DNA of 35,960 nt from Verrucomicrobiota bacterium JB024 (GTDB taxonomy: Bacteria; Verrucomicrobiota; Verrucomicrobiia; Opitutales; Cerasicoccaceae): the NCBI GenBank assembly GCA_030673825.1, contig JAUTCS010000066.1, positions 1 to 35,960 of the forward strand, written 5' to 3'. Positions 5,484-32,576 of the stretch are shown here, piece by piece. Both the position numbers and the translations under genes were made by a program. A model generated the notes under the pieces. The model worked only from the letters and a program-made list of their open reading frames with translations, ran no database searches and had not been told where the DNA came from. The stretch's first letter is position 1, and the number at the start of each line of letters is the position of its first letter.

Positions 5484-5505
5484 GCACCGGGACTCGTTCC
5501 GGTGC
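5484..5505 (+). promoter_or_regulatory. Hairpin between PEP-CTERM gene and enzyme genes
   Basis: GCACCGG / CCGGTGC form a 7-bp stem with an 8-base loop, 18 bases after the PEP-CTERM stop codon. There is no immediate T run, so it is more likely a partial terminator or a 3'-end stabiliser of the lead mRNA than a full stop. Confidence 0.45.
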
Positions 5506-5531
5506 CATAGACCCCCATTTTTCCCGTATCG

Positions 5532-10098: not shown

Positions 10099-10778
10099 GC
10101 AGATTCAAGCGAGGATTCAGCCTGGTCGAGATGCTGGTGTCGATCGCGGTCATCGCCGTGTTGATGGTGATCGTCATCGCCAGCGTGGGGCGCATCCGTA
10201 ACTCCGCCAATCGGGCCCAGTGCGTGAACAATATCCGTCAGCTTGGCAGCGGCATCCTCATGTACGCGCAGGACGATCAACTGAAGTTTCCGCAGGTGTC
10301 CGCCCCGCATTGGGCGACGCATATTGAGGATTTCGTCGGCGCGGAAAAACGCGCGGACGGCAGCTACGGCGAGTCCAGCCCCTTCGTGTGTCCATCCCGT
10401 TTGGGCATGCTCGAAAACTCGCGCAGCTGCCACTACGGGATCAATTTTTACCTGTATTCGGACACGCACGGCAGCAGCATCAGCGAGGCCCAATACAAGC
10501 TCAACCAGGTGGACAACCCGGCGCGGACCATCCTGATCGGGGATGCCCGGCTGGCGGGGGCGGTCGTGTACAAAACCATCCAGTCCGAGAACCTGCCGGG
10601 GCTCAACTCCAGCACCGTTTACGGGACTCCGTCCGTCGGCCTTCACGGTAACGGTGAGGCTAACGTATGTTTCGCCGACGGACACGTGGAGACCTTTGCA
10701 GATGCCAGCGAGCTGGGGCAGGTGCAGTACCGCAACTTCGGCCCGCAGGACATTTGGCACCCGAAAAAATCCCGCTGA
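10095..10778 (+). CDS. Prepilin-like protein with N-terminal methylation site (locus 1)
   Basis: The start is ATG 10095, behind a good ribosome site AGGAGG at 10083-10088 and overlapping the GH36 stop; an earlier in-frame start inside GH36 is unlikely. The 227-residue product begins F-K-R-G-F-S-L-V-E-M-L, a prepilin peptidase site with the +5 Glu, followed by the pilin helix. Then come C-V-N-N-I-R-Q-L-G, an F-V-C-P-S cysteine and a C-terminal F-A-D-G-H-V-E motif. These features match the G/H-type pseudopilin-like proteins (DUF1559-related) abundant in Planctomycetes and Verrucomicrobia. It probably sits in the inner membrane or in a type II pseudopilus. Two relatives lie at 20450 and 24785. 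Confidence 0.85.
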   Translation: MSRFKRGFSLVEMLVSIAVIAVLMVIVIASVGRIRNSANRAQCVNNIRQLGSGILMYAQDDQLKFPQVSAPHWATHIEDFVGAEKRADGSYGESSPFVCPSRLGMLENSRSCHYGINFYLYSDTHGSSISEAQYKLNQVDNPARTILIGDARLAGAVVYKTIQSENLPGLNSSTVYGTPSVGLHGNGEANVCFADGHVETFADASELGQVQYRNFGPQDIWHPKKSR

Positions 10779-10782
10779 CGGC

Positions 10783-15049: not shown

Positions 15050-15167
15050 CGTGCGGTGGGGTGGGCCGGGGTAACCTCAGGTTCTCCATCTGTTCTATCC
15101 GGTGCCTCTCTTGCGGCCTAAAGGCGTGACACGTATGGTCATTCGGGCTATAGCTTCGATTTTGAAC

Positions 15168-16205: not shown

Positions 16206-16253
16206 ATCGCGAGATTCCGCTTGCATAATCTTGGGAGTTATAGCACATTCTTA

Positions 16254-16271
16254 ACCTAATACGTATTAGGT
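16254..16271. promoter_or_regulatory. 18-bp palindromic operator, locus 2
   Basis: ACCTAATACGTATTAGGT is a perfect 18-bp palindrome with a central ACGT step, 55 bases before the PEP-CTERM start codon at 16327. A 16/18 copy occurs at 17102-17119. It is the best candidate site for the LacI protein encoded just upstream. Confidence 0.75.
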
Positions 16272-16326
16272 AAGTGCCGATGCGTAGGAAAACGAACTCT
16301 TGCAACACCCAAAAACCACCGACCAT

Positions 16327-17004
16327 ATGAAGCTCTCTCGACCCCTTACACTCGTTGCGGCCATGAGCTTTGCGCTCTCCGCACAGGCTGTCACCGTTTC
16401 AGATTTTGGTGCCAACCCGCCCACCGAAAACGTTGAAGTCAGCCAAACCATCAGCAACGGCGCCTACCAGTGGCGTAACAATGAAGCCAGCCGGCGTGAC
16501 CTCGGCCAGTCCTTTCTGGCGGAGACTGATTTCACCCTGGACTCGTTCAGCTTCCAGGCCAACGGGAACGTTCAGGTTGGCGCCAGCGGGGCTGCCTTCA
16601 CCGTGACGATCTACGAGAACAACAACCGGGATGCGGTGGGGACGGCCATTTCCACGCAGACGGGCACATACCTGACCTCGGCCAGCAACCCAGTTGCCAG
16701 TAACTGGCTGCTGTTTGACCTGGCCGAAAATGTCGATGTCACCGCGGGGAACTACTACACCATCATGCTCTCCTGGAATGTCGCCAGCGTCACCGACCAG
16801 GATCAGGTGTTCCAGATTGATTCCACGGGCACTAGCTACTTGCCCGGCCGTCTGTGGGAGTATAACGGCACGACCTTCACTCCCATGGGGTATGATATGG
16901 CGTTCACCGTTCAGGCGATCCCTGAGCCGAGCACGATGGCCTATGGCCTCGGGGCGGGTGTCCTGATCGTTTCGCTGTTCCTCAAGCGTCGCCGCAACCG
17001 CTAA
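16327..17004 (+). CDS. PEP-CTERM-anchored beta-sandwich protein (locus 2 lead gene)
   Basis: The start at 16327 gives 225 residues with a clean signal peptide (M-K-L-S-R-P-L-T-L-V-A-A-M-S-F-A-L-S-A-Q-A). The body is a single jelly-roll-like domain with R-R-D-L-G-Q-S-F-L-A-E-T and W-L-L-F-D-L-A-E-N-V-D-V-T-A-G-N-Y-Y. The tail is I-P-E-P-S, a hydrophobic helix and K-R-R-R-N-R, a standard PEP-CTERM sorting signal. The same domain pattern occurs at the N-terminus of the beta-helix protein at 18834. It is followed by an intrinsic terminator, so it may be made in excess over the downstream enzymes. A glycan-binding role is inferred. Confidence 0.88.
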   Translation: MKLSRPLTLVAAMSFALSAQAVTVSDFGANPPTENVEVSQTISNGAYQWRNNEASRRDLGQSFLAETDFTLDSFSFQANGNVQVGASGAAFTVTIYENNNRDAVGTAISTQTGTYLTSASNPVASNWLLFDLAENVDVTAGNYYTIMLSWNVASVTDQDQVFQIDSTGTSYLPGRLWEYNGTTFTPMGYDMAFTVQAIPEPSTMAYGLGAGVLIVSLFLKRRRNR

Positions 17005-17016
17005 CTTTTTTGTCAT

Positions 17017-17056
17017 GCCTGCCGGATGCCATCCCCTGACCTCCGGCAGGCTTTTT
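17017..17056 (+). terminator. Intrinsic terminator after the locus 2 PEP-CTERM gene
   Basis: GCCTGCCGGA and TCCGGCAGGC form a perfect 10-bp stem with a 15-base loop followed by TTTTT. It lies between the PEP-CTERM gene and the GH110-like gene and includes the in-frame ATG at 17015, which argues that the downstream gene starts later, at GTG 17063. Confidence 0.88.
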
Positions 17057-17062
17057 CTTCCC

Positions 17063-18802: not shown

Positions 18803-18833
18803 ACCGGTCCCGAACTTTATCTCGCTTTACACT

Positions 18834-20426
18834 ATGAATACCCCGCGCTTTTTCATCTCAGCCGCCCTTCTCCTGTTGGCTTGGCTGCCGGTCACGGCGG
18901 CCGAGACGACAGGGGAACTGGAGGGTTCCCTGGTCAGCGGCGAACCGCAGCTCGTCCAGAACGTGGCCTTCACCACCCCGAGCAAATCCGGCGGGATGCG
19001 TGTCTTCTGGATCGAGGGGCAGGGGCGGCGCGACATCGGGCAGCAGTTCACCGTGGAGACGGCGTTCGAGGCGCATCAGCTGGCGATCCAGATCAACGCC
19101 GGGACGGACGGCTTCGACGCGAAGGCGCCGATGAAGCTGACCTTTGCCAAGGTCGATGGCGGCCGTGCGCAGCCGGGCGACGTCCTGGCCGAGTTCACCG
19201 GGACACTCTCCGGCGGCAGTGAAAAGCCCTCCAGCGGCAAGTGGCTCGTCTTCAGCTTCCCGGCGGTCGAGTTTCAGCCGGGGCGCTATGTGTTTCTGTT
19301 GCAGTACACCGAGCCGGGGGCCAAGGGGCGCTCGCTGGTACTCAATGTCAGCACCGTGGCCAACGATTACGCGCAGGGGAAGGGCGTGATGTCCGACTCC
19401 AGCGATCCGGACAAGTTCAACTTTGGCGTGCCTGTCTGCTTCATCCTTTCCTCCTCGCTGCCCGGCTCGGGGCAGGGGGCCAGCCTGGAGCCGCGCACGC
19501 TCAAGGTCGATCAGCGTGGCGGGGCCGACTACACGAGCCTGCAGGCGGCGGCGGCGGCTGCGCGCCCCGGCGACATTATCAGCCTCGCGCCGGGGAGTGG
19601 CCCGTACCGCGAAGCACTGGAGGTCACGCAGTCGGGCACCGCGAATGCGCCCATCATCATCGAGGGCAACGGCGAGCTGATCACGGGTTTTGATCCCTTA
19701 ACCGGTTTTCAAAAGCAGGGGGATGCCTACGTCTGCGCGATCCCGGTACCCTTTCCCTACGTCCTGACCTACCAGGGGGAGCGCCTTCGGCAGGACGCGG
19801 CCACGGGCCAGTTCTCCAAGTACGCGGAACTCTCCGAGGACAAGCAGAGTATCCGGCTCCTGCCCGGCGTCAGCCCGGAGGGCTGGGAGGTCTCGACCCG
19901 CACCTATGTGGTGAAAATCTGGAATGTCTCCCATCACCTTTACCGCAATCTGCGGGCCTCCGGCGCACTGAACGACGGGTTCAACCTGCACGGGGTGGGG
20001 GACGACCTGGTCTTTGAAAATATCGAAGGCTTCCATTGCCTCGACGAAGGTTTCTCGGCGCACGACGACATCCGTTGCGAGATTCGCAAGGGGGCTTTCT
20101 ACGGCAACGACAACGGCCTTGTGAACATCGCCCGCAGCTTTATGGCGGCCTCCGACGTGGACATCTACGATAACCTCGGCTGGGGCCTGTACCTGCTGGA
20201 GTGCGGCGCGACCCTGGACAACGTTACCGTGCGGGACAACGGCCTCGCCCAGATCATCCTGGCGGATGCCGATGTGACCTGGACGCGCGTCACTGCCGCC
20301 ACCCCTGCGTGGACCACCCGCCGCTGGGTTACTTACAAGGAATCCGCCGGCAAGGAGGCACAGCCGCACCCGCTGGTCACGGATTCGCGCACCAAGCTGG
20401 ACGGCGGCCTGCCCACTCTCCTGTAG
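18834..20426 (+). CDS. Exported beta-helix polysaccharide-degrading enzyme candidate with lead-protein-like N-terminal domain
   Basis: This is a 530-residue protein with a signal peptide ending near V-T-A-A-E. Residues about 30-205 are a beta-sandwich whose G-R-R-D-I-G-Q-Q-F-T-V-E-T-A-F and W-L-V-F-S-F-P-A-V-E-F-Q-P-G-R-Y match the PEP-CTERM protein of the same locus. From about 222 a right-handed beta-helix starts (V-D-Q-R-G-G-A-D-Y-T-S-L-Q-A-A, then A-P-I-I-I-E-G-N-G), with D-G-F-N-L-H-G, C-L-D-E-G-F-S-A-H-D and Y-G-N-D-N-G-L-V-N later. The helix resembles pectate-lyase-like and galactan-cleaving beta-helix enzymes, but no specific family motif was fixed. It probably acts outside the cytoplasm on the same glycan as the GH110-like enzyme 31 bases upstream. 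Confidence 0.75.
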   Translation: MNTPRFFISAALLLLAWLPVTAAETTGELEGSLVSGEPQLVQNVAFTTPSKSGGMRVFWIEGQGRRDIGQQFTVETAFEAHQLAIQINAGTDGFDAKAPMKLTFAKVDGGRAQPGDVLAEFTGTLSGGSEKPSSGKWLVFSFPAVEFQPGRYVFLLQYTEPGAKGRSLVLNVSTVANDYAQGKGVMSDSSDPDKFNFGVPVCFILSSSLPGSGQGASLEPRTLKVDQRGGADYTSLQAAAAAARPGDIISLAPGSGPYREALEVTQSGTANAPIIIEGNGELITGFDPLTGFQKQGDAYVCAIPVPFPYVLTYQGERLRQDAATGQFSKYAELSEDKQSIRLLPGVSPEGWEVSTRTYVVKIWNVSHHLYRNLRASGALNDGFNLHGVGDDLVFENIEGFHCLDEGFSAHDDIRCEIRKGAFYGNDNGLVNIARSFMAASDVDIYDNLGWGLYLLECGATLDNVTVRDNGLAQIILADADVTWTRVTAATPAWTTRRWVTYKESAGKEAQPHPLVTDSRTKLDGGLPTLL

Positions 20427-20449
20427 AAGCTTTTGGCGATGGCATAACC

Positions 20450-21097
20450 ATGAAAAGACGTCAGACAAGTCTCCCGGGGTTTACCCTCATCGAGTTGCTT
20501 ACCGTGATCGCGGTGATCTCGATCCTTGCGGGCATCCTCATCGCCGCGATTTCGAGTGCCCGGCAGATGGCACGGACCGCCGAGTGTGCTTCGAACCTGC
20601 GCAACCTGGGCATTAGTTTGAATTTATTTGCGCAAGAGAACAGCGGCAAGCTGCCCACCGCCGGTAATTACAATGTCGTGGAAGGGGCGGGCACGAATAT
20701 GAGCTGGATGTACGCGCTGAACGATTTCCTCGCCGCGCGTTTCCCCGACATGAACGAGAAGTCGATCCTGCTTTGCCCCTCCGCCGCCGAGACGTATCCC
20801 AACGGCGACGCGCGGCGCACCTACGGTATGAACGCGGCAGGGACCGGCGGCGACATCGCCATGAACCCGAACTGGTTCCTCAAGCCCGCTTCGACCGTGC
20901 TGCTGATGGATACCAAGCACAACGGGGGCGGTGACGGTTACTTCGCTTTTGGCGCGGGCAGCTATGACCAGTATGTGGACTGGCGGCATGACGACGGCAC
21001 CAACGTCCTGTTTATGGACGGCCATGTGGAGAGAATTGAGAAAGCCGATGTCGCGCAGCTGCGCGAATACGTACTGAACTACCAGTTAAGAGAATAG
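20450..21097 (+). CDS. Prepilin-like protein with N-terminal methylation site (locus 2)
   Basis: The start ATG 20450 gives 215 residues beginning L-P-G-F-T-L-I-E-L-L-T-V-I, a canonical prepilin cleavage/methylation site and helix. E-C-A-S-N-L-R-N-L-G, L-L-C-P-S-A and the C-terminal F-M-D-G-H-V-E align with the proteins at 10095 and 24785. It lies 23 bases after the beta-helix gene and 4 bases before the GH4 gene, in one operon. It is a pseudopilin-like envelope protein; whether it joins the general type II secretion pseudopilus or binds substrate is unknown. Confidence 0.85.
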   Translation: MKRRQTSLPGFTLIELLTVIAVISILAGILIAAISSARQMARTAECASNLRNLGISLNLFAQENSGKLPTAGNYNVVEGAGTNMSWMYALNDFLAARFPDMNEKSILLCPSAAETYPNGDARRTYGMNAAGTGGDIAMNPNWFLKPASTVLLMDTKHNGGGDGYFAFGAGSYDQYVDWRHDDGTNVLFMDGHVERIEKADVAQLREYVLNYQLRE

Positions 21098-21101
21098 TCG
21101 G

Positions 21102-22526
21102 ATGATGAGTGACGTAGCAACAGAACCGTACACGGAAACGAACACTGAGAGCCTCCCAGTCACGGGTGGCTTGTCGGCGCTTAAGCGGATCACCTTTATC
21201 GGCGGGGGCAGTTATCAGTGGGTGCCGGTGCTCTTTCGGGACCTGGCCGTCAACGCCTCTCTACAGGACGCTCGCTTCGTCATGCACGATATCGACACCG
21301 AGCGCAACGCGGAGTTGGCCGGGGTCTGCCGGACCATCGCCCGCAAGGTGGAGTCGAACATCCGGATCGAGACCGAGGACTCCCTGACACGCGCGCTGAC
21401 GGGGGCCGATATCGTTGTGCTGTGCATCTCCACCGGTGGGCTGGAGGCGATGGCGCACGACATCGAGATCCCCAAAAAGTACGGGATTTATCAACCTGTC
21501 GGCGATTCGACCGGCCCGGGCGGCATCTCGCGCACGCTACGGAATGTTCCCGTGGTCGTTCGGATCGCCAAGGAGATGGAGAAGCACTGCCCGCAGGCTT
21601 GGCTGCTGAACCTGAGTAACCCGATGGACCAGATCGTGCAGGCCATCAGCCGGACGACCTCGATCAAGGTGGTCGGCCTGTGCCACGAGTACATGGGCTT
21701 CATGGGCAAGGCGCAGGAGTGGCTGGGCTTCGAGAATTTCCAGAAAAACTGTTCGGCCACGATCGCCGGTATCAATCACTTTGCGTGGATCACCCAGCTG
21801 GATGTGAATGGCGAGGACGGCCTGGAGATGCTCCGGCGCTTTCACGCGAAGGGCGGCGTCAGCAAGCTGAGCGCTTCCGAGAGCAAGCTGGTTAACCTCA
21901 GCGCCAAGCGCAGCCCGGAGAAGGTGAAGTTCCAGCTCTTCGAGAACTACGGCGTCATGCCTTACCCGGGTGACCGTCACCTGGTGGAATTCTTTCCCTA
22001 CTTCCTCTCCGAAAAGACGCAGTATGGAGCGGCCTTCGGGGTGGACCTGACCTCGATCGAGGATCGCCGGACGACGTGGATGGAGTACTTCATGGACCGG
22101 ATCAAAGACTGGACAAGCGACGACCCCGCGTCGGTGCCGCTGCAGCCGTCCGAGGAGTCACTGGCTCCCATCATCGCCGCTCTGCTCGGGGGCGAGTCGA
22201 CAATCCAGCCCGTCGCCGTTCCCAACCGCGGGCAGGTCTCCAACCTGCCGATGGGCTCCGTGGTGGAGACGCTGGGCACCTTCCAGCGTAACCTGCTTTC
22301 GCCGCATGTTTCCGGCCCGTTGCCGGAGGCGCTGGTCGCGTTGACCTACAAGCACTGTGTCAATCAGGACCTGACGGTCGAGGCCGCGCTCACGGGTAAC
22401 CGCGAGAGGGTGCTGCACGCCATGCTGGCCGACCCGCTGAACAACTGCAACGACTACCGGGAAATCACCGCCATGCTCGACGAGCTCATGGAGGCTAACC
22501 GGAGTTTGCTGCCGCAGTTCGGCTGA
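21102..22526 (+). CDS. GH4-family NAD- and metal-dependent alpha-glycosidase
   Basis: A 474-residue cytoplasmic protein, four bases after the prepilin-like gene. G-G-G-S-Y-Q-W-V-P near 35-43 is the Rossmann NAD-binding start. G-D-S-T-G-P-G-G-I, L-L-N-L-S-N-P-M-D-Q, G-L-C-H-E-Y (Cys194-His195) and G-I-N-H-F-A-W (His226) are the GH4 catalytic and metal sites. GH4 enzymes use oxidation-elimination chemistry on free or phosphorylated alpha- and beta-glycosides. The C-H-E-Y motif is closest to the C-H-E-V type linked with alpha-glucosidases, rather than C-H-S-V of alpha-galactosidases (family knowledge; tentative here). It probably finishes the breakdown of imported products of locus 2. Confidence 0.92.
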   Translation: MMSDVATEPYTETNTESLPVTGGLSALKRITFIGGGSYQWVPVLFRDLAVNASLQDARFVMHDIDTERNAELAGVCRTIARKVESNIRIETEDSLTRALTGADIVVLCISTGGLEAMAHDIEIPKKYGIYQPVGDSTGPGGISRTLRNVPVVVRIAKEMEKHCPQAWLLNLSNPMDQIVQAISRTTSIKVVGLCHEYMGFMGKAQEWLGFENFQKNCSATIAGINHFAWITQLDVNGEDGLEMLRRFHAKGGVSKLSASESKLVNLSAKRSPEKVKFQLFENYGVMPYPGDRHLVEFFPYFLSEKTQYGAAFGVDLTSIEDRRTTWMEYFMDRIKDWTSDDPASVPLQPSEESLAPIIAALLGGESTIQPVAVPNRGQVSNLPMGSVVETLGTFQRNLLSPHVSGPLPEALVALTYKHCVNQDLTVEAALTGNRERVLHAMLADPLNNCNDYREITAMLDELMEANRSLLPQFG

Positions 22527-22568: not shown

Positions 22569-23597
22569 CTAGGATGTCGCCGGGCGGACGGTTTTGCCCT
22601 CGCGCCAGTGGCCGGTGACGAGGGTGACCTTGGGCGTGGTGAGGCGGCCGTACTCGTTGTGGATGATTTTGCCCGCCACCAGATCGACGAGGGTGGTGCC
22701 CATCATGGCGCTGTCCTCGATCACGCCGCTGAAGGACTCGTCCGTGGTGGTGGCGAGGCAGGCGATGGCTATGTCTTCGGGGACGCGCAGGCCGAGGGCG
22801 CGGATCCATTTCATCTCGTGCTCGGTCGGGCACAGGAGGGCGTCGGGTTTCCAGCGCTCGTACCATTCTTTAAACTGCGCGAAGGGGACCTCCTCGGGGT
22901 TCCCCCGCATGATGGGGAGCGACTCCATCTGCGAGGAGAAAAGCTGGCAGCCGATGTAGCCGTGAGCCCAGTAGGTACGGACTTCCTTCTGGAACTGCTC
23001 AAGCGGGAGGCAAAGACCGATGCGCCGGTATCCCCGGGAGCGCAGGACCTCCCAGGCGATTTCGACATTTTTGAGGTGATTGTTCACGACGAGATCGGCC
23101 GGACAGTTCTGCCATGAGAGGCCGTTGCCGACGCAGGCGTAGCTTTTCCAGTCCAGGCCGCTAAAGGGTGTGGTCTTGCGGTAGGGGGCGCCGAGAATCA
23201 GTCCGTTGATTCCGCGTGCCTGGAGAATCCCGTCGATGCGGCGCGGGCTCATTCCCGCGGCTCTGAGGAAAAAACACTCGGTGTAGAAGCCGAGCTTTTC
23301 GGCCTGCATCTGGATATTATTGTACTGCTCGACGTAAACCTGGTTCGTCAACCAGTCGTCGAGGGATTTCGCGTCGGCGAGGATGGCGATACAGATTTTG
23401 TCCCGGATGGAGCGTCCGGAGCGGATGTGCTGCATCAGGGTGGAGACATACGCGTTACTGCGGTAGCCCTGCCGCTCGGCTTCGTCCAGTACGAGCTGGC
23501 GGGTCTCCTCGGGGATGCGGGGGTGGCCGCGCAGGGCGAGGGAGACCGTTGTCTGGTTCAAGCAAAGAGCTTGCGCAATGGATCGCTGGTTGGACAT
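22569..23597 (-). CDS. LacI-family transcriptional repressor of glycan locus 3
   Basis: This 342-residue protein opens directly with a LacI helix-turn-helix (Q-R-S-I-A-Q-A-L-C-L-N-Q-T-T-V-S-L-A-L-R-G-H). The effector domain contains G-M-S-P-R-R-I-D-G-I-L-Q-A-R-G-I-N-G-L and I-I-H-N-E-Y-G-R-L-T-T-P, very like the locus 1 regulator, so the two are paralogues. It is convergent with the GH4 gene (42 bases apart) and divergent from the PEP-CTERM-like gene at 23900. A palindrome at 23698-23715 lies in the shared intergenic region and is its likely site. Confidence 0.92.
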   Translation of the reverse strand: MSNQRSIAQALCLNQTTVSLALRGHPRIPEETRQLVLDEAERQGYRSNAYVSTLMQHIRSGRSIRDKICIAILADAKSLDDWLTNQVYVEQYNNIQMQAEKLGFYTECFFLRAAGMSPRRIDGILQARGINGLILGAPYRKTTPFSGLDWKSYACVGNGLSWQNCPADLVVNNHLKNVEIAWEVLRSRGYRRIGLCLPLEQFQKEVRTYWAHGYIGCQLFSSQMESLPIMRGNPEEVPFAQFKEWYERWKPDALLCPTEHEMKWIRALGLRVPEDIAIACLATTTDESFSGVIEDSAMMGTTLVDLVAGKIIHNEYGRLTTPKVTLVTGHWREGKTVRPATS

Positions 23598-23899
23598 GGG
23601 GTGGGGTGTTCGGTCGTGTCATTCAAAGGATCGCAGGTCGCCCACTGGGGCTCAAACCAGCATGCGTGGACTCACTCTATAATTTGAAGACGCGACGCAG
23701 TCATCGTGATGACTGATGCGCAAATTGCAAGTGTGCACTGAAACCCGTTTGATGGGGCCATGTTCTTCAGCCCCCACCGTGCTTTACCCCTGCCATGGCT
23801 GAGGGCGCGTCGTCCCGGCTCGGGGCGGCCGGTGGGCTCTTTCCTGTAAACGCCAACCCGACGATACCCGCTTCTCCAAACCCCAACGACATACCAATC
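23598..23899. other. Divergent intergenic region of locus 3
   Basis: About 300 bases between the LacI start and the PEP-CTERM-like start. It holds the palindrome at 23698-23715 and an AT-richer stretch around 23675-23735 (TATAATTTGAAG at 23678-23689) where the divergent promoters probably lie. An ORF extension of the plus-strand gene back to 23795 is possible but adds no signal peptide and is not used. Confidence 0.5.
23698..23715. promoter_or_regulatory. Candidate LacI operator, locus 3
   Basis: CAGTCATC-GT-GATGACTG is a perfect inverted repeat of 8-bp arms and a 2-base spacer, just downstream of a TATAAT-like element and about 100 bases from the LacI start. It fits an operator for the divergent regulator. 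Confidence 0.6.
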
Positions 23900-24679
23900 A
23901 TGAAAAACGTATTCTGCTCCCTGCTCCTTACCTTTGCGCTGACGGCTTTTTCTCAGGCCGTCACGATCACGGAGGATTTTGACGACTACTCCGGCGGTAC
24001 GACCGGCACCGCCGCCGGCTGGGTGGGTCTTTTCGGTGGTAATCCCGACAACTGGACCGTGACGGTGCCGCCCACCGCCGGCGACCCCAGCACGGCCAGC
24101 TTTGTGGAAGGCTCCGGCACCTCGGATATGCAAATGTACAAGACCTTTGATATCGCCAATACCTTCACCAGCAGCGACACGGTTTACTATTCGGTCTGGG
24201 TGCGCCCCCAGCAGACGGGCGGCCTGGTCAAGGGCATCCGCTTCGGGGCGACGACGAGCGATAATAAGCCAACATACCTGTTCGGGGTTTCGGCCACGGA
24301 TGCGACGCTCTCGACCTTCCGGTTCTTTGTCGGCAGTGAGGTCTCGACGAATCTTTATGACGCCAACGACTGGTATCAGCTGATGCTGGTGATCGATCAG
24401 AGCACCGGATCGACGAACGCGACCGGGACGCTGATGGCCCGCAACGTGACCGACGGGGAAACGGTGTTTTCGACGGTGGCCGGGCTCGAAAATATCAGCC
24501 TGGGCCTGACATCGAGCACGGAGGTGTCCGATTGGACTGCCTGGCTGATTCGCTCCAGCTACCGTCAGGAAATCGACAATCTTTACCTGTCCACCAATAT
24601 CCCCGAGCGCTCAAGCGTCGCCGCGATGCTGGGCATATTTGCGTTGCTGGCGGGTCTTATTCTTCGCCGCCGTAAATAA
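23900..24679 (+). CDS. PEP-CTERM-like anchored beta-sandwich protein with PER variant (locus 3 lead gene)
   Basis: The start at 23900 gives 259 residues with a signal peptide ending F-S-Q-A. The domain starts V-T-I-T-E-D-F-D-D-Y-S-G-G-T and ends W-L-I-R-S-S-Y-R-Q-E-I-D-N-L-Y-L. The tail is N-I-P-E-R-S-S, a hydrophobic helix and L-R-R-R-K: a PEP-CTERM layout in which the usual P-E-P is P-E-R. The whole domain is paralogous to the unanchored protein at 28606 in the same locus. It is the first gene facing the LacI regulator and is followed by an inverted repeat. A surface glycan-binding role is inferred. Confidence 0.85.
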   Translation: MKNVFCSLLLTFALTAFSQAVTITEDFDDYSGGTTGTAAGWVGLFGGNPDNWTVTVPPTAGDPSTASFVEGSGTSDMQMYKTFDIANTFTSSDTVYYSVWVRPQQTGGLVKGIRFGATTSDNKPTYLFGVSATDATLSTFRFFVGSEVSTNLYDANDWYQLMLVIDQSTGSTNATGTLMARNVTDGETVFSTVAGLENISLGLTSSTEVSDWTAWLIRSSYRQEIDNLYLSTNIPERSSVAAMLGIFALLAGLILRRRK

Positions 24680-24698
24680 CGCGGCTGCTTTGCGCTCT

Positions 24699-24744
24699 CG
24701 ACGGTTCTCCTGACCGGAACGATGATTGGTCCGGCGGACCGTCG
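24699..24744 (+). promoter_or_regulatory. Inverted repeat after the locus 3 lead gene
   Basis: CGACGGT (24699-24705) and ACCGTCG (24738-24744) are perfect arms, with a second inner pair CCGGA / TCCGG. This allows a long bulged hairpin between the lead gene and the prepilin-like gene. There is no T run, so partial termination or mRNA protection is more likely than full termination. Confidence 0.5.
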
Positions 24745-24784
24745 ATAGCTACCCACCTCCCTCGAGCGCTTACCCCTTCCTCCC

Positions 24785-25480
24785 ATGCGTCCAATGAGTC
24801 AGAAAACCAGTGGCGGCTTTTCCCTGATGGAGTTGCTGGTGTGCATCGCCGTCATCGGTGTGCTGGTGGCCCTGAGCTTCCCCGCCATCCGGCAGATGCG
24901 GATGATGTCGGCTTCGGCGCAGTGCAGTTCGAACCTTCGGCAGATCGGCGTAGCCACGGGACTCTACGTGGCCGAGCACAACGGGAATTTCCCCCCGCTG
25001 CCGGAAAACGCCAGCAACAACTGGTACTCTTACACCATCTGGAATAACCCCGGTGGCAAGCGGCAATGGATGTACATGGGCAAGCTCTTCGAGGGCGGGT
25101 ACATCGAGGATGGGCGCGCCTTCTACTGCCCCACGGCGAAAGAGGGGACCTTCGATTACGAGAGTCAGTGGGCGCAGAGAGTGGAGGGCACCACGGTCAA
25201 TGAACACTTCCGCATCGGCTATCTCCAGCGCGTCACGGACAACCAGCCGACTCCGGGCGTGCTGACTCCGTCTGACCACGCGCACCCCCGCATCCTCATG
25301 ACGGACAACTTCCTGGCCCGCGACAACTCCCTGCATCCTTACGCTGACAAGTCCACGCAGGGCCAGCGGGAGCTCCACGTTCTCTTCAGCGACGGCCATG
25401 TCGGGGTCGATGCCTCCGGCAACCGCTGGTATCACCGTGCCACCGGCTCCCTTTACGACGACTGGGAACAGAATTTTTAG
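24785..25480 (+). CDS. Prepilin-like protein with N-terminal methylation site (locus 3)
   Basis: 231 residues; a start at codon 4 (ATG 24794) is also possible. S-G-G-F-S-L-M-E-L-L-V-C-I-A-V-I is a prepilin peptidase site with the conserved Glu. It shares Q-C-S-S-N-L-R-Q-I-G, F-Y-C-P-T-A and L-F-S-D-G-H-V-G with the two other prepilin-like proteins of this window. The lyase gene starts 4 bases after its stop, so both are in one operon. Unlike loci 1 and 2, here it directly follows the PEP-CTERM-like gene. Confidence 0.85.
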   Translation: MRPMSQKTSGGFSLMELLVCIAVIGVLVALSFPAIRQMRMMSASAQCSSNLRQIGVATGLYVAEHNGNFPPLPENASNNWYSYTIWNNPGGKRQWMYMGKLFEGGYIEDGRAFYCPTAKEGTFDYESQWAQRVEGTTVNEHFRIGYLQRVTDNQPTPGVLTPSDHAHPRILMTDNFLARDNSLHPYADKSTQGQRELHVLFSDGHVGVDASGNRWYHRATGSLYDDWEQNF

Positions 25481-25484
25481 TTTT

Positions 25485-27581
25485 ATGAAGCATACCCTCA
25501 TTCCTTTTTCCAAGAGCGCCCGGGCGTTGTTGTTCACGCTGACCGCCTGCGGAGCGCCAACGGTCCTTGCCGCCGGAGAGACGCCGGTTGCGGCTGGCGG
25601 CTTTTATGCCGAGGCCGTCGATCACGCGGCGCAGATGGCACAGGCCGACCCGTCGGTCCAGGCCCGGCTCGATGCGATACTGGCCGAGGCGGACAGCATT
25701 TGCGGGCTTCCGCTGGTCAAGCGCGCCTACTCCCTGCAGGAACTGCGCGAGAACACGGACGAGCGTTGTGGGGGGATCGATGCGCGCACGTTCGTGACCG
25801 AAAAGATTTATCCGCGCAAGGCCGAGATCTTCGCGCTGTCCATGGCGGATACCGGCACCGCGGCGAAGATCGCCCGGGAGCTGCCGTTGCTGGCTGCCGC
25901 CTACCGGCTGACCGGCAAGGCCGAATACGCCGAGCGGGTCGAGGCTCAGCTGCGCGAGGTTCTGACCTGGCAGCCCTTGCAGCGCCCCGGCTGGACGCTC
26001 CATGTGCCCGAGAACGATCTGCCGCCCAGCGGCTACGATGGCGTCTGGCTCTCCACCGGACTGGGGCTGGTAGCGCTGGTGCAGACTTTGCAGATCATGC
26101 CCGAGGGGGTGCTTCCCGAGGATCTGACCGCCGCCGTCAAGGAGCAGCTCGGCTCTGAGGTCGAGCGCATCCGCAACGACTGGGAAAAGCATATCCCCTG
26201 GTTTGTCCGCTCACATAATGTGGTCACGAACCAGTGGATCGTGCCCAGCGGTGGGCTGGTCGTGGCGGCGGCCTATCTGGGGCGCGAGGCGCATCCGGAG
26301 GCTTACGACCTGGGCATCGCCAACCTGACCCAGAGCATGAACGAAATGGGCGAGGACGGCTCCGCCGCCGAAGGTGCCGTCTATGCCTCGCACTGGACCG
26401 CGCCGCTGCTGTACCTTGCAGCCCGCGCCACGCTGGAGGCCGGGGACGACAGCCTGTCTTCCTCGTCCTTCCTGCAAAATTTCCCCATTTGGCTCTCCGG
26501 TTCCTATCAGCCAGGCGGGCATATTATCAACTGCTTCGATGGCTTCACCGCCAACCGGGGGAGCAACGTCCTGCAGGTTGAGGACATCACGCAACTGGCG
26601 GTTCTCAGCCAGGACCCTTCGCTCATCTGGGTGCTGCGGAATATCTTTGGCCCGAAGATGCAGGTGCTCAATGCTTACGGGCTGATGGCGCTGGGTATCC
26701 CCGAGGGGGCAGGGCGGGAGCCGCCGCTTTACGGCGTGTATGAGCGCGCGGCCTGGGCGGTCTGGCGGGACTCGTGGCGGGAGGACGCCTCCGGAGTCTG
26801 GGTCCGCGGCGGGCACAAGACGGACTTCCACGACCACAACGACCGCGGCCACGTGAACTTCATCGTGGACGGCAAGGCGGTGCTGATTGAGGCGGGAACG
26901 CCCGGCTACGACCAGGCGGACAAGGCCTCGAACTTTAACTCCGTCAAGGGGCACAACGTGTTGCAGATTGACGACGAGCTGTTCCCGCGCCGTCAACCGG
27001 CGGCCCTGACCGTCAACCGTCTCGATGCCGAGGGGGGCGATGTGACGGTGGACGCGGGCGCGGGCTACCGCGACGGCGTGACGGAGTGGTCATACGGGGC
27101 GAGTCCCGTCCCGGATAAACGTCTCAATACCGTCCAGTGGCAGCGGCATGTCGTCTGGGATGCGCATGAGATGGTGGTGACGGACCGCGTGGTGCTGGAA
27201 ACGCCCGGCAAGCTGACCTTCCGCTGGCACTTGGGCTCGGAGCAGCCGCTGGCCATTGATGAGGAGTCGGAAACCGATGCCTCCGCCCACCTGCCCGCCG
27301 GGAGCATGACCTTCCGCGGCTGGAATGGCCGCAAGGGTGAGAGCACGCTGGAAGGGATCGCCTGGACCGCGCCGGACAAGGATATCGTTCCCACGCCGGA
27401 GGTGGATCTGGAGGTCGGGGCGGACCAGCCCATCCGCGTGTATCAGGAGAAGAATTTCGACCATACGTTTAAGTTCCGGGTCATACGCCACGAGCATACG
27501 ACTTTGGTCGTTCAAACGCGGGAGGCGGTCACCGAGTTCGAGCTGACGACCGTCATCCGCTCAGACGCGCAAGAACAATGA
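25485..27581 (+). CDS. Heparinase II/III-like polysaccharide lyase, exported
   Basis: The start ATG 25485 gives 698 residues with a signal peptide ending near V-L-A-A-G. Residues about 50-370 are an alpha/alpha-toroid domain (alginate-lyase-like) with R-S-H-N-V-V-T-N-Q-W near 242 and D-G-S-A-A-E-G-A-V-Y-A-S-H-W near 292, the usual place of catalytic Asn/His and Tyr. The C-terminal beta-sandwich starts at F-H-D-H-N-D-R-G-H-V-N-F near 448, with V-L-I-E-A-G-T-P-G-Y, the heparinase II/III signature. Such lyases cleave uronate-containing glycans by beta-elimination (PL12/15/17/21-like group); the exact family is not assigned. Its stop overlaps the next start (ATGA). It implies a uronic-acid substrate for locus 3. 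Confidence 0.87.
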   Translation: MKHTLIPFSKSARALLFTLTACGAPTVLAAGETPVAAGGFYAEAVDHAAQMAQADPSVQARLDAILAEADSICGLPLVKRAYSLQELRENTDERCGGIDARTFVTEKIYPRKAEIFALSMADTGTAAKIARELPLLAAAYRLTGKAEYAERVEAQLREVLTWQPLQRPGWTLHVPENDLPPSGYDGVWLSTGLGLVALVQTLQIMPEGVLPEDLTAAVKEQLGSEVERIRNDWEKHIPWFVRSHNVVTNQWIVPSGGLVVAAAYLGREAHPEAYDLGIANLTQSMNEMGEDGSAAEGAVYASHWTAPLLYLAARATLEAGDDSLSSSSFLQNFPIWLSGSYQPGGHIINCFDGFTANRGSNVLQVEDITQLAVLSQDPSLIWVLRNIFGPKMQVLNAYGLMALGIPEGAGREPPLYGVYERAAWAVWRDSWREDASGVWVRGGHKTDFHDHNDRGHVNFIVDGKAVLIEAGTPGYDQADKASNFNSVKGHNVLQIDDELFPRRQPAALTVNRLDAEGGDVTVDAGAGYRDGVTEWSYGASPVPDKRLNTVQWQRHVVWDAHEMVVTDRVVLETPGKLTFRWHLGSEQPLAIDEESETDASAHLPAGSMTFRGWNGRKGESTLEGIAWTAPDKDIVPTPEVDLEVGADQPIRVYQEKNFDHTFKFRVIRHEHTTLVVQTREAVTEFELTTVIRSDAQEQ

Positions 27582-28609
27582 AGCTGAAGCTTTGCCTGAT
27601 CGGTTGCGGAGGCTTCTCCGCCGATGTCCATGGTCCCGCGCACATGAGCTACGCGGCCACGCATCCGGGCGTCGAGCTGGCGGCCTGCTGCGACCTGGAT
27701 GCCAAGCGGGCGCAGGACTATGCCCTGCGTTTCGGCTACCGGCGTGTCTATACGGACGCGGAGCGTATGCTCGAACAGGAGGCGCCGGACGCGGTCTTCG
27801 TGTTGGTCATGCCGCGTGTCTCCGCCGCCGTTGCCTCCGTGGTGCTGCGGCGGGGGATCCCGCTTTTTCTGGAAAAGCCGCCGGGCATGACCGGGCGCGA
27901 GATCGAGACGCTGTCTGCGCTTGCGCGGGAGCATCAGGTGCCAAGTCAGGTGGCGTTCAACCGCCGCTACATGCCGATCATGCAGGCGGCACGCCGGATT
28001 CTGGACGAGCGGTTCCCATCCGTCTTACAGGTGAACTACCACATGATCCGCTACAACCGGGCGGACCCGGATTTTTCCGTGACGGCGATCCACGCCATCG
28101 ACGCGGCCCAGTTCCTGGCCGGAAGTCCTTACCGGCAGGCCAGCCTGCGTTTCGAGTACAAGGTGGGCGTGGAGGCCAGCCGCTCGAACGTTACCGTGCT
28201 GGCCGAGACCGCGTCCGGCACGGCGGTTAACATCCACATCCAGCCCATGGCCGGGCTCGTCTCGGAGAGCTTCACCGTGCATGGGGTGGGGATGTCCCTC
28301 TCGGGAAGTGTTTACGGCCCCGGAGGGCAGGCGAACTCCGGCTTTCTGGAGCACTGGATCGGGGACCGGTTGGTGAGCAGCCACACCGACGAGGGGCTGG
28401 AGCGGCCCGTGCGCATGGGGATCCATGCGGAGGTGGAGGCGTTCTGTGAAGCCGTCCGGCAGGGTGGGCCGATGACACCGTCGCTGGAGGAGTGCCAAAG
28501 TCAGGTCCGCCTGATGGAAGCGATTCGCAACCGCGAGACCGGGAACCTGACCTTTACCTTGCCGCGGGAAATGCCCGCCACCCGTTACCCTCAAAATATT
28601 GCCACATGA
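27578..28609 (+). CDS. Gfo/Idh/MocA-family oxidoreductase
   Basis: A 343-residue cytoplasmic protein. The N-terminal Rossmann fold has L-C-L-I-G-C-G-G-F-S-A, C-C-D-L-D-A-K-R-A and F-L-E-K-P-P (Glu99-Lys100-Pro101, the family's E-K-P site). The C-terminal domain has A-I-H-A-I-D-A-A-Q-F-L at the usual catalytic His region. The family reduces or oxidises sugars and sugar acids with NAD(P). Joined by ATGA overlaps to the lyase before it and the beta-sandwich protein after it, it probably processes the monomers released in locus 3. Confidence 0.9.
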   Translation: MKLKLCLIGCGGFSADVHGPAHMSYAATHPGVELAACCDLDAKRAQDYALRFGYRRVYTDAERMLEQEAPDAVFVLVMPRVSAAVASVVLRRGIPLFLEKPPGMTGREIETLSALAREHQVPSQVAFNRRYMPIMQAARRILDERFPSVLQVNYHMIRYNRADPDFSVTAIHAIDAAQFLAGSPYRQASLRFEYKVGVEASRSNVTVLAETASGTAVNIHIQPMAGLVSESFTVHGVGMSLSGSVYGPGGQANSGFLEHWIGDRLVSSHTDEGLERPVRMGIHAEVEAFCEAVRQGGPMTPSLEECQSQVRLMEAIRNRETGNLTFTLPREMPATRYPQNIAT

Positions 28610-29319
28610 AAACCCGACACCTCCTCAGCTTCGGCTGCCTCACACTGGGCGCCGGCCTGCTTCACGCGGGTGAAAGCGTCACCGAAGATTTTGAAAGCTA
28701 TCCAGAAGGGACATCCGTTGTCTCCGCCGGGTGGAAGTACTTTTCCGGGCAGGGCTCGATTGACGACGCCATGGTCGGAAGCCCCAGCGCCGCCGCCAAC
28801 CCGAGTGCCCGTGTCCTGACCGGAAGCGCGGACGGGCGCGACCTGCAAATGACCAAGCCGTTCGGTGCGCCCTGGGCGTACACCGGCGCTAACAACAAAA
28901 TCGAATACCGCGTGAAGGTGGTGCCGCAGGCCACCGGCTCGGGCGTGCAGCCGATCAGCTTCGGGGTGGCTACCGATTCGGGAAAGGTCCTGCCGCTGTT
29001 CGGTGTCTGCGCCAATCCCGAGTCCCGTCAGGAATGCCGGTTCCAGGTGAACGAAACGGAGTCGGGCGAACTTTTTCCCGCCGGGCATCTCTACGAACTG
29101 TGGTTGACGATCGATACGGACAAGGGGCTGCCGAATGCCCGTGCCACCCTGAAAATGCGTGACCTGAGCGCCGGACAGAAGGAGTGGACGACGGTGCCCG
29201 GGCTGGAAGAGGTCAAGTTTTACCTGGAAGGAGCGTGGAATCCCCGGGCCTGGAAGGGCTGGTACATCCGCAGTTCTTACCGCCGCGAGGTTGACGACCT
29301 GTCGCTTTCAGCGTCTTGA
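28606..29319 (+). CDS. Unanchored paralogue of the locus 3 lead protein, exported
   Basis: 237 residues with a signal peptide ending L-H-A-G-E. The remainder aligns from end to end with the protein at 23900: S-V-T-E-D-F-E-S-Y-P-E-G-T at the start, P-Q-A-T-G-S-G-V-Q-P-I-S-F-G-V-A-T, L-F-G-V-C-A, L-W-L-T-I-D, and Y-I-R-S-S-Y-R-R-E-V-D-D-L-S-L at the end. It stops right after this domain and has no PEP-CTERM tail, so it should be a soluble periplasmic or secreted form. The start overlaps the oxidoreductase stop (ATGA). No catalytic motif was seen; carbohydrate binding is inferred. Confidence 0.82.
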   Translation: MKTRHLLSFGCLTLGAGLLHAGESVTEDFESYPEGTSVVSAGWKYFSGQGSIDDAMVGSPSAAANPSARVLTGSADGRDLQMTKPFGAPWAYTGANNKIEYRVKVVPQATGSGVQPISFGVATDSGKVLPLFGVCANPESRQECRFQVNETESGELFPAGHLYELWLTIDTDKGLPNARATLKMRDLSAGQKEWTTVPGLEEVKFYLEGAWNPRAWKGWYIRSSYRREVDDLSLSAS

Positions 29320-29325
29320 TAGCGC

Positions 29326-30300
29326 ATGGCCAGTTACTTGTTGAAAGCGTGCCGCCGGAGCATCGTGTGGGGATGCGTCCTGCTCGCCGCTGTTAGTGGG
29401 CCAGTTGTTGCCGCGCAGGATGGAGAACCGACGCAGGAGCCGCTCATTCTTGGGGACGCCGCCTTTCGCGTGACGGTGCTGCCCGGACTGGAGGAATGGA
29501 TCCCGCGCCGGGGGCCGCGCTTCGACACGACGGCGGCGGTCGTCTCGGTCGAGATTGAGGGGGAGGAGTTCCTCTGCCAGGGCGGACTGGCGGATGAGTT
29601 TAATCCGCGGTTTGTCCCGCCGCCCGGCTATATCGAGGCGCGCCTGGGCGATCCGTTTCTGAAGATCGGGGTTGGGATCCTGCTGTCGCGGCTGGAGGAG
29701 AATTACCTGTTTGATAATCCCTATCAGGTGGAGCGTCTGGCTCCGAACACGCGCATCCTGCAAGAGGAGGCGAATGAGGCGGCCTTCAGCCAGTCGATCG
29801 ATTCGGGGCTGGGCTGGGCCTATGCCTACACGAAGACCTATGTCGTCGATCCCGCCGCGCGCACACTGACGATCCGCTACCGCCTGGAAAACACCGGGAC
29901 CAAGCCCTTGCTGGTCGAGCAGTATAACCACAACTGGTTCCGGTACGATTCGGACGACGGGAAGGCGAAGGTGACCGCGACGGCGCCGTTTCTGCTCAAC
30001 TCGGAAAAGGTAAACGCCTATCCCGGGTGGTCCCAGTCGGGGTACACCGTGACGGTTTCCCGGCAGGTGCCGCCGTCGTATTTTCGGCTGCCGCAGGACA
30101 TTACGCCCGCCGAGAACCGGGTGTTGGTGACTGACCACCTTGGCGGTCGGTCGGTGCTTGTCACGGGCGATTTTCAGGTCCGCCGTTACGCAGCTTTCGC
30201 CGATGAGGAGAGCTTTTGCCCGGAGGTATTCTGCCTGTTGGAAATCGAACCGGGCGAGACGCAGAGTTGGAGCAGGACTTACATTTTTATGCTGGAGTGA
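29326..30300 (+). CDS. Exported galactose-mutarotase-like beta-sandwich protein
   Basis: A 324-residue protein with a signal peptide (I-V-W-G-C-V-L-L-A-A-V-S-G-P-V-V-A-A-Q). A Cys at residue 17 precedes the predicted cleavage site, so a lipoprotein is not favoured. The body is all-beta, with E-Q-Y-N-H-N-W-F-R-Y-D-S-D-D-G, reminiscent of the catalytic His loop of aldose-1-epimerase-type folds, and L-T-I-R-Y-R-L-E-N-T-G-T-K-P just before it, which is common in that superfamily. It starts 6 bases after the paralogue gene and ends locus 3. It may be a mutarotase, an oligosaccharide-binding protein or a lyase-like sandwich; I cannot choose among them. Confidence 0.65.
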   Translation: MASYLLKACRRSIVWGCVLLAAVSGPVVAAQDGEPTQEPLILGDAAFRVTVLPGLEEWIPRRGPRFDTTAAVVSVEIEGEEFLCQGGLADEFNPRFVPPPGYIEARLGDPFLKIGVGILLSRLEENYLFDNPYQVERLAPNTRILQEEANEAAFSQSIDSGLGWAYAYTKTYVVDPAARTLTIRYRLENTGTKPLLVEQYNHNWFRYDSDDGKAKVTATAPFLLNSEKVNAYPGWSQSGYTVTVSRQVPPSYFRLPQDITPAENRVLVTDHLGGRSVLVTGDFQVRRYAAFADEESFCPEVFCLLEIEPGETQSWSRTYIFMLE

Positions 30301-30359: not shown

Positions 30360-30437
30360 CGGACGTTGGCGTTATGGAAAGGTTTGCTAAATCGGGGTTG
30401 GCAACGCCTGCTAATTCGTCCTAGTAAGTTATGTGTT

Positions 30438-32576
30438 ATGTTCCGCCGTCGATGTATCGGGGCGCTTCTTCTGGTATGTCTTTGGCCGGTGGTGGCGCCT
30501 TTGCTTCATGCCCATGACGACGCTCTGGCCCGGTCGGAGCGGACTCGTGTGCAGTTGAAGTGGCTGCATCAGTTCCAGTTCGCGGGGTATTACGCGGCGC
30601 TGGAGAAGGGGTTTTACGCCCAACGCGGGCTTAACGTCGAACTGCTGGAGGGGCGTCCGGAGCTGGACCCGGCGCAGAGTGTGCTCTCCGGCGAGGCGCA
30701 GTACGGGGTCGGTACGCCGGAAATCCTGCTGGATTATGCCGAGGGCGAACCGCTGGTGGCCCTCGGGGTGATCTTCCAGCACTCCCCCTACGTGTTTCTG
30801 GCCACGGTGGAGTCGGGCATCACGGACATCAACATGCTGGCCGGCAAGCGTGTCATGATCGAGCCCCAGGCGGCGGAGCTGTACGCCTATCTGGTCCGGG
30901 AACGGGTGCCGTTGGGCAGCCTGATCGTCCTGCCGCACTCCTTCAGCGCGCATGACCTGATCGATGGCACCGTCGATGCCATGTCCGCCTACTCCACGGA
31001 CGAAGAGTTTACCCTCCAGCGCGACGGGGTGCCGTACTCGGCCTTTTCGCCACGCTCGGGCGGGGTCGATTTTTACGGTGACCTGTTTTTTACCACCCGC
31101 GCGGAGGTCGATGAGCACCCGGAGCGGGTACGCGCCTTTTACGAGGCCACGGTCGAGGGCTGGCAGTACGCCCTCGAACATCCGGACGAGATGGTTGACC
31201 TGATCCTGGAGAAATACCCGACGGAAAAGAGCCGGGATGCGCTGCTTTTCGAGGCTGCGAAAATGCGCCAGCTCATGCACCCCGAGATTATCCCGGTCGG
31301 CTACATGTACGCGGGGCGCTGGCAACACATCGCCGAGACCTATCAGGAGCTCGGGATGCTCGATGCGATTCCGAAGCTGGAGCCGTTCCTCTACGACTCG
31401 AATCCGCCCAAGGACTACCGTTGGGCGCTGTGGACGAGTGGGATCACACTGGCGGCCGCGCTCGTGGCTTTCGGGATACTGCTGCCCGTGTGGCGCCTGA
31501 ACGGACGCCTGCGCCGGGAGGTGGAGCAGCGCCGCCGCACCGAGGTCAAGCTTCACGAGGCCAAGGAGGCCGCTGAGCAGGCCAACCAGGCCAAGGCGCA
31601 GTTCCTGGCCAGCGTCACTCACGATTTGCGCACGCCGCTCAATGCCATCCTCGGGCTCTCGGAGGTCATGCTCCACGAGGAGCGCGGCGAGGAGGACCGC
31701 GACCATTTGGAGAATATTCACCGGGCCGGGGAGTCGCTGCTGCGGCTGGTGGACGAACTGCTCGATCTCAACCGCATCGAGTCGGGCCGCCTGGAGTTGA
31801 GAGACGAGCCCTTCCTGCTGGACGAGGTTTGGGACGAGGTGGCTAACCTGCTCTCCGTGCCCGCCCAGCGCAAGGGGTTGGAGCTGACCGCGTGCCTGGA
31901 GTCTGCTGCGTGTGCTCCCCTGAGGGGAGACGCCGAGCGTTTGCGGCAGATCCTTTTCAACCTCGGCGGCAACGCCGTGAAGTTCACCGAGCGGGGCTTC
32001 GTGCGCATGAGCGCGCGTGTGGACAGTGAGGGCTGGCTTTCCCTGCGGATCGAGGACAGCGGTCCGGGCATCCCCGAGGAGATTCGCGAGCAGCTTTTCG
32101 AGCCCTTCGTGCGCTCGCAGGAGATGAAGCTCAAGGAGGGCTCGGGGCTCGGGCTGAGCATCGTCCGTCGCGTGGCTGAGGCCATGGGCGGCACGGCGGA
32201 AGTCGGCGCCCGTGAGAATGGCAGCGGGGCGGTTTTCTGGGTGCGGCTGCCAATCATTGACAAGGAGCCCAACGCCGCGGCCTCGGAACTGGGTAACTGC
32301 CTGCAAGGCCGCCATATTGCGGTTCATTCCCGGAGTGACGAGCAGGCCGCCGCCGCCGTGCGCAACCTTGAGAGCCTGGGGGCACAGGCCAACCGTCTCA
32401 GTGAGGCTCACTTGAGCGGCTGCGATCTGGTCCTGGTCGATACGCCTACCGTATCGCAGGAGCTGATTCAGCGTTTGGAACAGGCCGGGATTCCGAGCCA
32501 GGTCATGTCTCCGCCGCGCGCGTTGACGACTCGCCGGGGACTGGCCCGCCTTGTGCAGGCGGGGCTTCCGCGTTAA
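30438..32576 (+). CDS. NMT1/THI5-type substrate-binding domain fused to a histidine kinase
   Basis: I choose ATG 30438, which opens a signal peptide (F-R-R-R-C-I-G-A-L-L-L-V-C-L) in a 712-residue protein. Residues about 35-310 form a periplasmic NMT1/THI5-like domain (Q-L-K-W-L-H-Q-F-Q-F-A-G-Y-Y-A-A, V-G-T-P-E-I-L-L). A transmembrane helix at about 330-352 and a coiled-coil linker follow. The kinase core has V-T-H-D-L-R-T-P-L-N (His395), N-box N-L-G-G-N-A-V-K-F-T, E-D-S-G-P-G-I-P and G-S-G-L-G-L-S-I. The last about 100 residues resemble a degenerate receiver. The THI5 family binds pyrimidine precursors of thiamine or other small ligands, so this is a ligand-sensing kinase. No response regulator is adjacent. 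Confidence 0.9.
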   Translation: MFRRRCIGALLLVCLWPVVAPLLHAHDDALARSERTRVQLKWLHQFQFAGYYAALEKGFYAQRGLNVELLEGRPELDPAQSVLSGEAQYGVGTPEILLDYAEGEPLVALGVIFQHSPYVFLATVESGITDINMLAGKRVMIEPQAAELYAYLVRERVPLGSLIVLPHSFSAHDLIDGTVDAMSAYSTDEEFTLQRDGVPYSAFSPRSGGVDFYGDLFFTTRAEVDEHPERVRAFYEATVEGWQYALEHPDEMVDLILEKYPTEKSRDALLFEAAKMRQLMHPEIIPVGYMYAGRWQHIAETYQELGMLDAIPKLEPFLYDSNPPKDYRWALWTSGITLAAALVAFGILLPVWRLNGRLRREVEQRRRTEVKLHEAKEAAEQANQAKAQFLASVTHDLRTPLNAILGLSEVMLHEERGEEDRDHLENIHRAGESLLRLVDELLDLNRIESGRLELRDEPFLLDEVWDEVANLLSVPAQRKGLELTACLESAACAPLRGDAERLRQILFNLGGNAVKFTERGFVRMSARVDSEGWLSLRIEDSGPGIPEEIREQLFEPFVRSQEMKLKEGSGLGLSIVRRVAEAMGGTAEVGARENGSGAVFWVRLPIIDKEPNAAASELGNCLQGRHIAVHSRSDEQAAAAVRNLESLGAQANRLSEAHLSGCDLVLVDTPTVSQELIQRLEQAGIPSQVMSPPRALTTRRGLARLVQAGLPR

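Follow-up and report, generated by a model that had tools for sequence, protein, structure and literature searches.

Introduction

Why would a bacterium keep one domain twice in the same gene cluster, once with a C-terminal tail of the sorting type and once without it? The question arises on contig JAUTCS010000066.1 of Verrucomicrobiota bacterium JB024 (assembly GCA_030673825.1), of which positions 1 to 35,960, hereafter the window, were analysed. An initial annotation, made from the letters alone, had noted that the proteins starting at 23900 (P1) and 28606 (P2) align along their whole domain and that only P1 carries a sorting tail, and had suggested that one binding domain occurs here in bound and in free form, either in a hand-over chain or as a membrane-held and a periplasmic lectin. 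SusD and the surface glycan-binding proteins of Bacteroidota catch glycan outside the cell for neighbouring enzymes. For polysaccharide uptake in Verrucomicrobiota, the outlook of one paper urges that outer-membrane transporters besides SusCD be studied (PMC8857213). PEP-CTERM proteins are described as mostly without known function (PMC1569441; PMC7783341), and a term look-up in PMC10880615 found no mention of them.

Results

Two copies of one domain

The genes and features of the cluster are, in order of position, those listed below; P2 is followed by a protein for which no family was found:

22569..23597, minus strand: LacI-type regulator, divergent from P1 (Peripla_BP_3 above cut-off, E = 1.3e-9; LacI HTH below cut-off)
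23900..24679, plus strand: P1, the tailed twin, 259 aa; signal peptide, jelly-roll-type domain, sorting-type tail
24599..24676, plus strand: C-terminal tail of P1, residues 234-259; IPER variant, hydrophobic stretch, RRRK
24698..24745, plus strand: RNA hairpin in the gap 3' of P1, within a fold of -38.3 kcal/mol (z -2.1)
24785..25480, plus strand: pseudopilin-like protein (N_methyl above cut-off, DUF1559 below cut-off)
25485..27581, plus strand: heparinase II/III C-terminal-type protein, a putative lyase (PF07940, E = 4.7e-11)
27578..28609, plus strand: GFO/IDH/MocA oxidoreductase (profile match)
28606..29319, plus strand: P2, the tail-less twin, 237 aa; signal peptide and the domain of P1, nothing after the domain

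Both signal peptides were called by eye rather than by a predictor. The GFO/IDH/MocA reading frame overlaps that of the heparinase-type protein and that of P2 by 4 bases each; a search by sequence found no PDB relative of the heparinase II/III-type protein.

P1 and P2 align by BLASTP at 36% identity over 227 residues with two gap positions (E = 2e-41), and in a shuffle test of the mature domains (1000 shuffles) the pair scored 326 against a mean of 33 and a maximum of 67 (Z = 53), which rules out chance similarity and bears out the whole-domain alignment described earlier. The four motifs quoted at that time (TEDF-x-x-Y, P-Q-x-T-G, L-F-G-V and I-R-S-S-Y-R-x-E-x-D) are present in both proteins, as TEDFDDY and TEDFESY, PQQTG and PQATG, LFGV in each, and IRSSYRQEID and IRSSYRREVD. 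Judged by their sequences, the two are unmistakably paralogues, homologous over the entire domain.

Neither twin matched a Pfam or NCBIfam profile above cut-off, the LamG-type profiles included, and no convincing solved relative was found by sequence. When the whole of its own genome was searched with P1 (E up to 1), nothing but P2 matched besides P1 itself. Among a sample of 132 relatives, P1 matched four genomes, its own being one of them, and the matches in G056, G061 and G089 were weak (E 2e-5 to 9e-4) and ran on into the tail. A profile search through a sample of 273 genomes of the order matched the own genome alone, and in a sample of 387 genomes of the phylum P2 matched its own genome and one 41-residue stretch (E = 8e-4). 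Scanning of genome contigs and viral contigs confirmed no relatives of the pair. A phage origin was rejected: P1 was unmatched in annotated phages and the pair in viral contigs.

A tail on P1 and none on P2

The C-terminus of P1, IPERSSVAAMLGIFALLAGLILRRRK, shows by eye a Pro-Glu motif, a hydrophobic stretch and a basic cluster at the extreme end, and it is caught by the tail rule that we used in the genome survey. P2, on the other hand, stops right at the end of its domain, and the next ORF starts at 29326, 6 bases later, leaving no room for a frameshifted tail, which was therefore discarded as an explanation. The claim that only P1 has a sorting tail thus holds for P2 and agrees with the layout of P1, but the PEP-CTERM profiles PF07589 and TIGR02595, at E up to 1, did not report the P1 tail, so that the label rests on layout and on similar tails elsewhere in this genome. 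Three PF09721 matches over cut-off mark exosortases in this genome.

Strong hairpins such as that behind P1 were seen 3' of 40 of 75 tailed ORFs (z below -2) as compared with 14 of 75 in a crude control, an excess that carries no weight because the controls include false ORFs; these hairpins may be terminators or transcript-stabilising ends.

Predicted fold

For modelling, the mature domain of either twin was aligned with its partner alone; rather than differing in fold both came out as jelly rolls, at moderate model confidence (P1, pLDDT 67 and pTM 0.73; P2, pLDDT 64 and pTM 0.70), the first 50-58 residues being poorly modelled in each. ERGIC-53 and legume lectins were the top VIA-align matches of both models, with Z 12.5, rmsd 3.5 and 159 aligned residues for P1 (model pLDDT 67) and Z 12.1, rmsd 3.4 and 166 aligned residues for P2 (model pLDDT 64). 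Foldseek, run for P1 only, returned GH131, PL7 alginate lyases and galectin-8, all at low TM; galectin-like and other families that stood low in the structure lists or were missing from them were left out of the evidence. With moderate confidence, both proteins are likely to be ConA-like jelly rolls.

Another tailed/tail-less pair in the window

The window holds a further tailed protein with a tail-less relative downstream:

16327..17004, plus strand: second tailed protein (weak DUF4082 and PEP-CTERM matches, below cut-off)
18834..20426, plus strand: second tail-less twin; N-terminal domain akin to 16327, then a beta-helix-like region (weak match, below cut-off)

The protein at 16327 and the N-terminal part of that at 18834 share 24% identity over 121 aa (E = 1e-8; Z = 16.5 with 200 shuffles).

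The two pairs lie among three successive clusters (3535-12132, 15102-22526 and 22569-30300), each of which has a short tailed protein together with a DUF1559-like pseudopilin and a regulator of the LacI type; their carbohydrate-type genes are, in order, GH71/99, raffinose synthase and sulfatase; beta-helix and GH4; and heparinase II/III. Genome-wide, 9 of 71 TIGR02595 matches had a LacI within 2 kb as compared with at most 3.5 expected, and 11 as compared with 8.3 at 5 kb. To the counts of genes near PEP, three window tails missed by the model were added, which favours those counts. Ten of 21 DUF1559 genes (22 matches, two in one gene being merged) had a LacI within 5 kb as compared with 2.4 expected. 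A genome-wide module of LacI next to PEP-CTERM is therefore only modest, and the link of DUF1559 with LacI is clearer. Further along, one ORF at 30366-32576 joins an NMT1/THI5-like binding domain to a histidine kinase, and between 33559 and 35750 an ORF that we take to be ROK-type repressor-like faces a tailed protein at 35007, which matches TIGR02595 over cut-off; the contig ends soon beyond.

Tailed and free twins recur in the genome

We surveyed 60 stretches around TIGR02595 matches together with the window (61 stretches, 908,106 bases, 76 tailed ORFs), covering 66 of the 71 TIGR02595 matches and leaving five outside. Each ORF recognised as tailed by a widened tail rule was stripped of its tail and compared with the ORFs of all 61 stretches. 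Before counting we discarded overlapping ORFs, tailed ORFs whose K+R reached 9%, alignments shorter than 80 residues and pairs more than 98% identical. Local paralogue pairs were tailed/free in 10 cases (8 of them outside the window) and tailed/tailed in one, whereas distant paralogues were tailed/free in 2 and tailed/tailed in 15 (Fisher p = 5e-5, a guide only, because some ORFs figure in more than one pair and the ten include both pairs of the window). With phmmer and the control stretches added, the local counts were again 10 and 1 and the distant ones 4 and 12. The 20 control stretches (399,992 bases) held no tail-less relative, their four matches all being to two tailed ORFs. Besides the pairs counted, the ORF at L013:7899 is tailed, and another distant relative, at L034:1338, is tail-less.

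Of the ten pairs, two are in the window and one each in L017, L019, L024, L031, L040, L041, L044 and L047. Every one exceeds 200 shuffles (Z 16.5 to 70.5) and is read from a single strand, with the tailed gene first in seven. The twins are deeply diverged (24-51% identity). P1 and P2 are thus one case of an arrangement that recurs in this genome, and the idea that one binding-type domain occurs in bound and in free form draws support from their homology, the moderate-confidence jelly-roll models, the heparinase-type gene between them and the nine other pairs, some of which have carbohydrate-binding-type domains recognised by Pfam. A general rule is opposed by the 66 of 76 tailed ORFs for which the survey detected no local free twin, and by the relatives, which favour tailed/tailed pairs.

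The twins also differ in composition. In all ten pairs the tailed twin has less K+R (mean 3.2% vs 8.7%, p = 0.002) and more S/T/N (29.6% vs 19.2%, p = 0.002); at aligned positions, 133 basic residues occur in the free twin alone as against 18 in the tailed twin alone, the lost ones being most commonly replaced by S, T, N, G and Q. The 15 tailed/tailed pairs show no such split (mean K+R difference of 0.7 percentage points). Among seven further pairs, K+R was lower in the tailed twin in six (L127 was equal) and S/T/N higher in five (exceptions L095 and L127). Few basic residues and much S/T/N are a trait of the PEP-CTERM cohort (PMC1569441), but the split seen here runs between twins of one domain.

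Several twins have no family match. LamG was found in both L017 twins, both L047 twins (below cut-off in the free one) and the L019 free twin, where it is joined to a sulfatase; CBM96 was found in both L162 twins, a weak F5/8C in the L044 free twin, a weak Disaggr_repeat in the L040 tailed twin, and beta-helix-like regions on the free twins at window 18834 and in L058. Neighbours were scanned for the pairs in L017, L019, L031, L040, L041, L044 and L047. Glycan-type or sugar-regulator genes adjoin the pairs in L031, L040, L041 and L047 (AraC, GH99 with LamG, GntR/LacI, GH42, SASA, BNR and pectate-lyase-like genes), L017 has a LacI regulator and L019 a weak GH43 match nearby, and the scan found no glycan genes next to L044. 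That pair (L044:7394-9231, 50% identity) has a Na/Ca exchanger and a dihydroorotate dehydrogenase as neighbours. The genome, which is about 95% complete, gave no SusD_RagB match (PF07980, the only SusD profile used) at E up to 0.01; in a control, the same profile matched one of 14 genomes, a Bacteroides.

Pairs in relatives and their co-inheritance

In stretches around the best-scoring TIGR02595 matches of four related genomes, a local tailed/free pair occurred in 1 of 20 (G001), 0 of 20 (G004), 1 of 20 (G007) and 3 of 18 (G002), that is in 5 of 78 stretches as compared with 9 of 61 in the own genome; testing 10 of 61 against 5 of 78 gave p = 0.10, which overcounts because only nine stretches of the own genome hold the ten pairs. 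Among local pairs in these relatives tandem tailed arrays predominate, with 13 tailed/tailed pairs, in three stretches (L101, L102 and L136), to 5 tailed/free. When all five genomes were pooled, partners were free in 15 and tailed in 14 local cases, and free in 3 and tailed in 30 distant ones (p = 3e-4). Two pairs escaped these counts, that of L095 in G001 because its alignment was shorter than 80 residues and that of L058 because it was not detected as a local pair; both were seen separately. Also in G001, which is of the same genus, L102:1054-10223 has seven tailed paralogue ORFs in tandem, in two groups, and L101:7028-9878 a trio of related ORFs in the order tailed, tail-less, tailed.

Four families with two pairs each could be examined for co-inheritance by distance quartets (gap-free columns, 1000 bootstraps). 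Tailed forms grouped with tailed ones, and free forms with free ones, in all 1000 bootstraps for L041/L169 (tailed-tailed identity 51%, free-free 49%, across 33%), for L024/L095 (58%, 57% and 24-29%) and for window 16327-18834/L058 (38%, 32% and 20-25%), and in 999 of 1000 for L127/L164 (32%, 48% and 27-36%), where the free side carries the result. This grouping implies that the tailed and free forms predate the split of species or loci and that both were kept in one locus; on these quartets, the pairs of the four families are old and have been retained together. The evidence comes from families other than that of P1 and P2, which themselves are without close relatives. L157 in G002, where the tailed form is alone, is an exception. 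Queried with the L041 free twin, 2 of 273 genomes of the order matched, each with a tailed twin close by; the L044 free twin matched its own genome alone among 243, and a scan of genome contigs with the L041 and L169 free twins confirmed nothing.

Discussion

We propose, with a probability of roughly one half, that P1 and P2 are a twin glycan-capture module, one anchored and one free, which would bind the same ligand in two places. Their cluster would be a regulator-linked cluster for polysaccharide breakdown. An exosortase would process the tail of P1, which could then be displayed at the cell surface or in exopolysaccharide and catch polymer outside the cell, while P2 would be exported, stay free, probably in the periplasm, and bind fragments or keep the enzymes of the cluster on their substrate; in some other pairs, the free twin is itself fused to an enzyme. 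We infer surface display of the tailed twin, export of the free twin and the shared ligand.

The same facts about P1 and P2 would fit equally if, instead of handing glycan over, the anchored twin bound the free one as a pseudo-homodimer and so held the free protein, or an enzyme fused to it, at the surface. Docking of this kind would suit the same-strand proximity of all ten pairs, the co-inheritance in four families, and the free twins fused to a sulfatase (L019) or a beta-helix-like region (18834, L058) beside tailed twins of about one domain. Most free twins are without an enzyme, however, and a shared ligand explains the binding-type folds just as well; we regard docking as unlikely. No higher do we rate the view that the pairs reflect nothing beyond local copying with loss or gain of a tail, the copies differing in job or ligand. 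Haft et al. (PMC1569441) report that PEP-CTERM genes are often duplicated and often lost and that tailed and tail-less proteins occur as homologous pairs, tandem tailed arrays occur in the relatives (L102, L136), and twins at 24-51% identity have had ample divergence, all of which would follow from unlinked duplication; what this view does not readily accommodate is the ratio of tailed/free to tailed/tailed in the own genome, 10 to 1 locally and 2 to 15 at a distance, and the keeping of both forms side by side in four families.

One could also envision the twins as matrix proteins that build or organise the organism's own exopolysaccharide or flocs rather than serve feeding on outside glycan, given that PEP-CTERM genes have been linked to exopolysaccharide (PMC1569441) and to floc formation (PMC9850573, PMC9012009). 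However, several of the clusters contain sugar-type regulators along with genes of catabolic type (GFO/IDH/MocA, symporter, DHDPS), which fit feeding better, and of the explanations considered this one seems to us the least probable.

Glycan capture by twins would combine features of several known systems. Like the PEP-CTERM/exosortase proteins (Haft 2006, PMC1569441), the tailed proteins have a tripartite tail, few basic residues and much S/T/N in a genome with exosortases, but the P1 tail itself escapes the models. Homologous pairs with one tailed and one tail-less member were already noted in that paper; in contrast to those, the tail-less homologue here is a same-strand neighbour, recurs across families and is co-inherited in four. 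No description of neighbouring tailed/free twins stood among the literature matches listed, and an earlier account may exist. P1 and P2 resemble LamG/ConA-like lectins and carbohydrate-binding modules in their moderate-confidence jelly-roll models, and some other twins have LamG or CBM96, but unlike LamG_3/CBM96 proteins they have no sequence match to such families and are not fused to an enzyme. The job proposed for the twins, capture of glycan outside the cell, is that of SusD and the surface glycan-binding proteins of Bacteroidota, from which they differ in predicted fold, in anchoring and in that SusD_RagB is unmatched in the genome. It is conceivable, though we hold it only tentatively, that a general two-form capture strategy, with any binding fold and both forms acting jointly on one glycan by hand-over or docking, replaces SusD-type proteins in this group.

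Regardless of how the twins work, P1 and P2 present one domain in two forms within one cluster, beside an enzyme gene that may make their ligand, and the recurring anchored/free pair offers a concrete object on which to test both glycan capture in Verrucomicrobiota and the function of PEP-CTERM proteins. If the two-form strategy is real, each polysaccharide cluster could carry an anchored copy stripped of basic residues and a free copy, the two being inherited as a unit.
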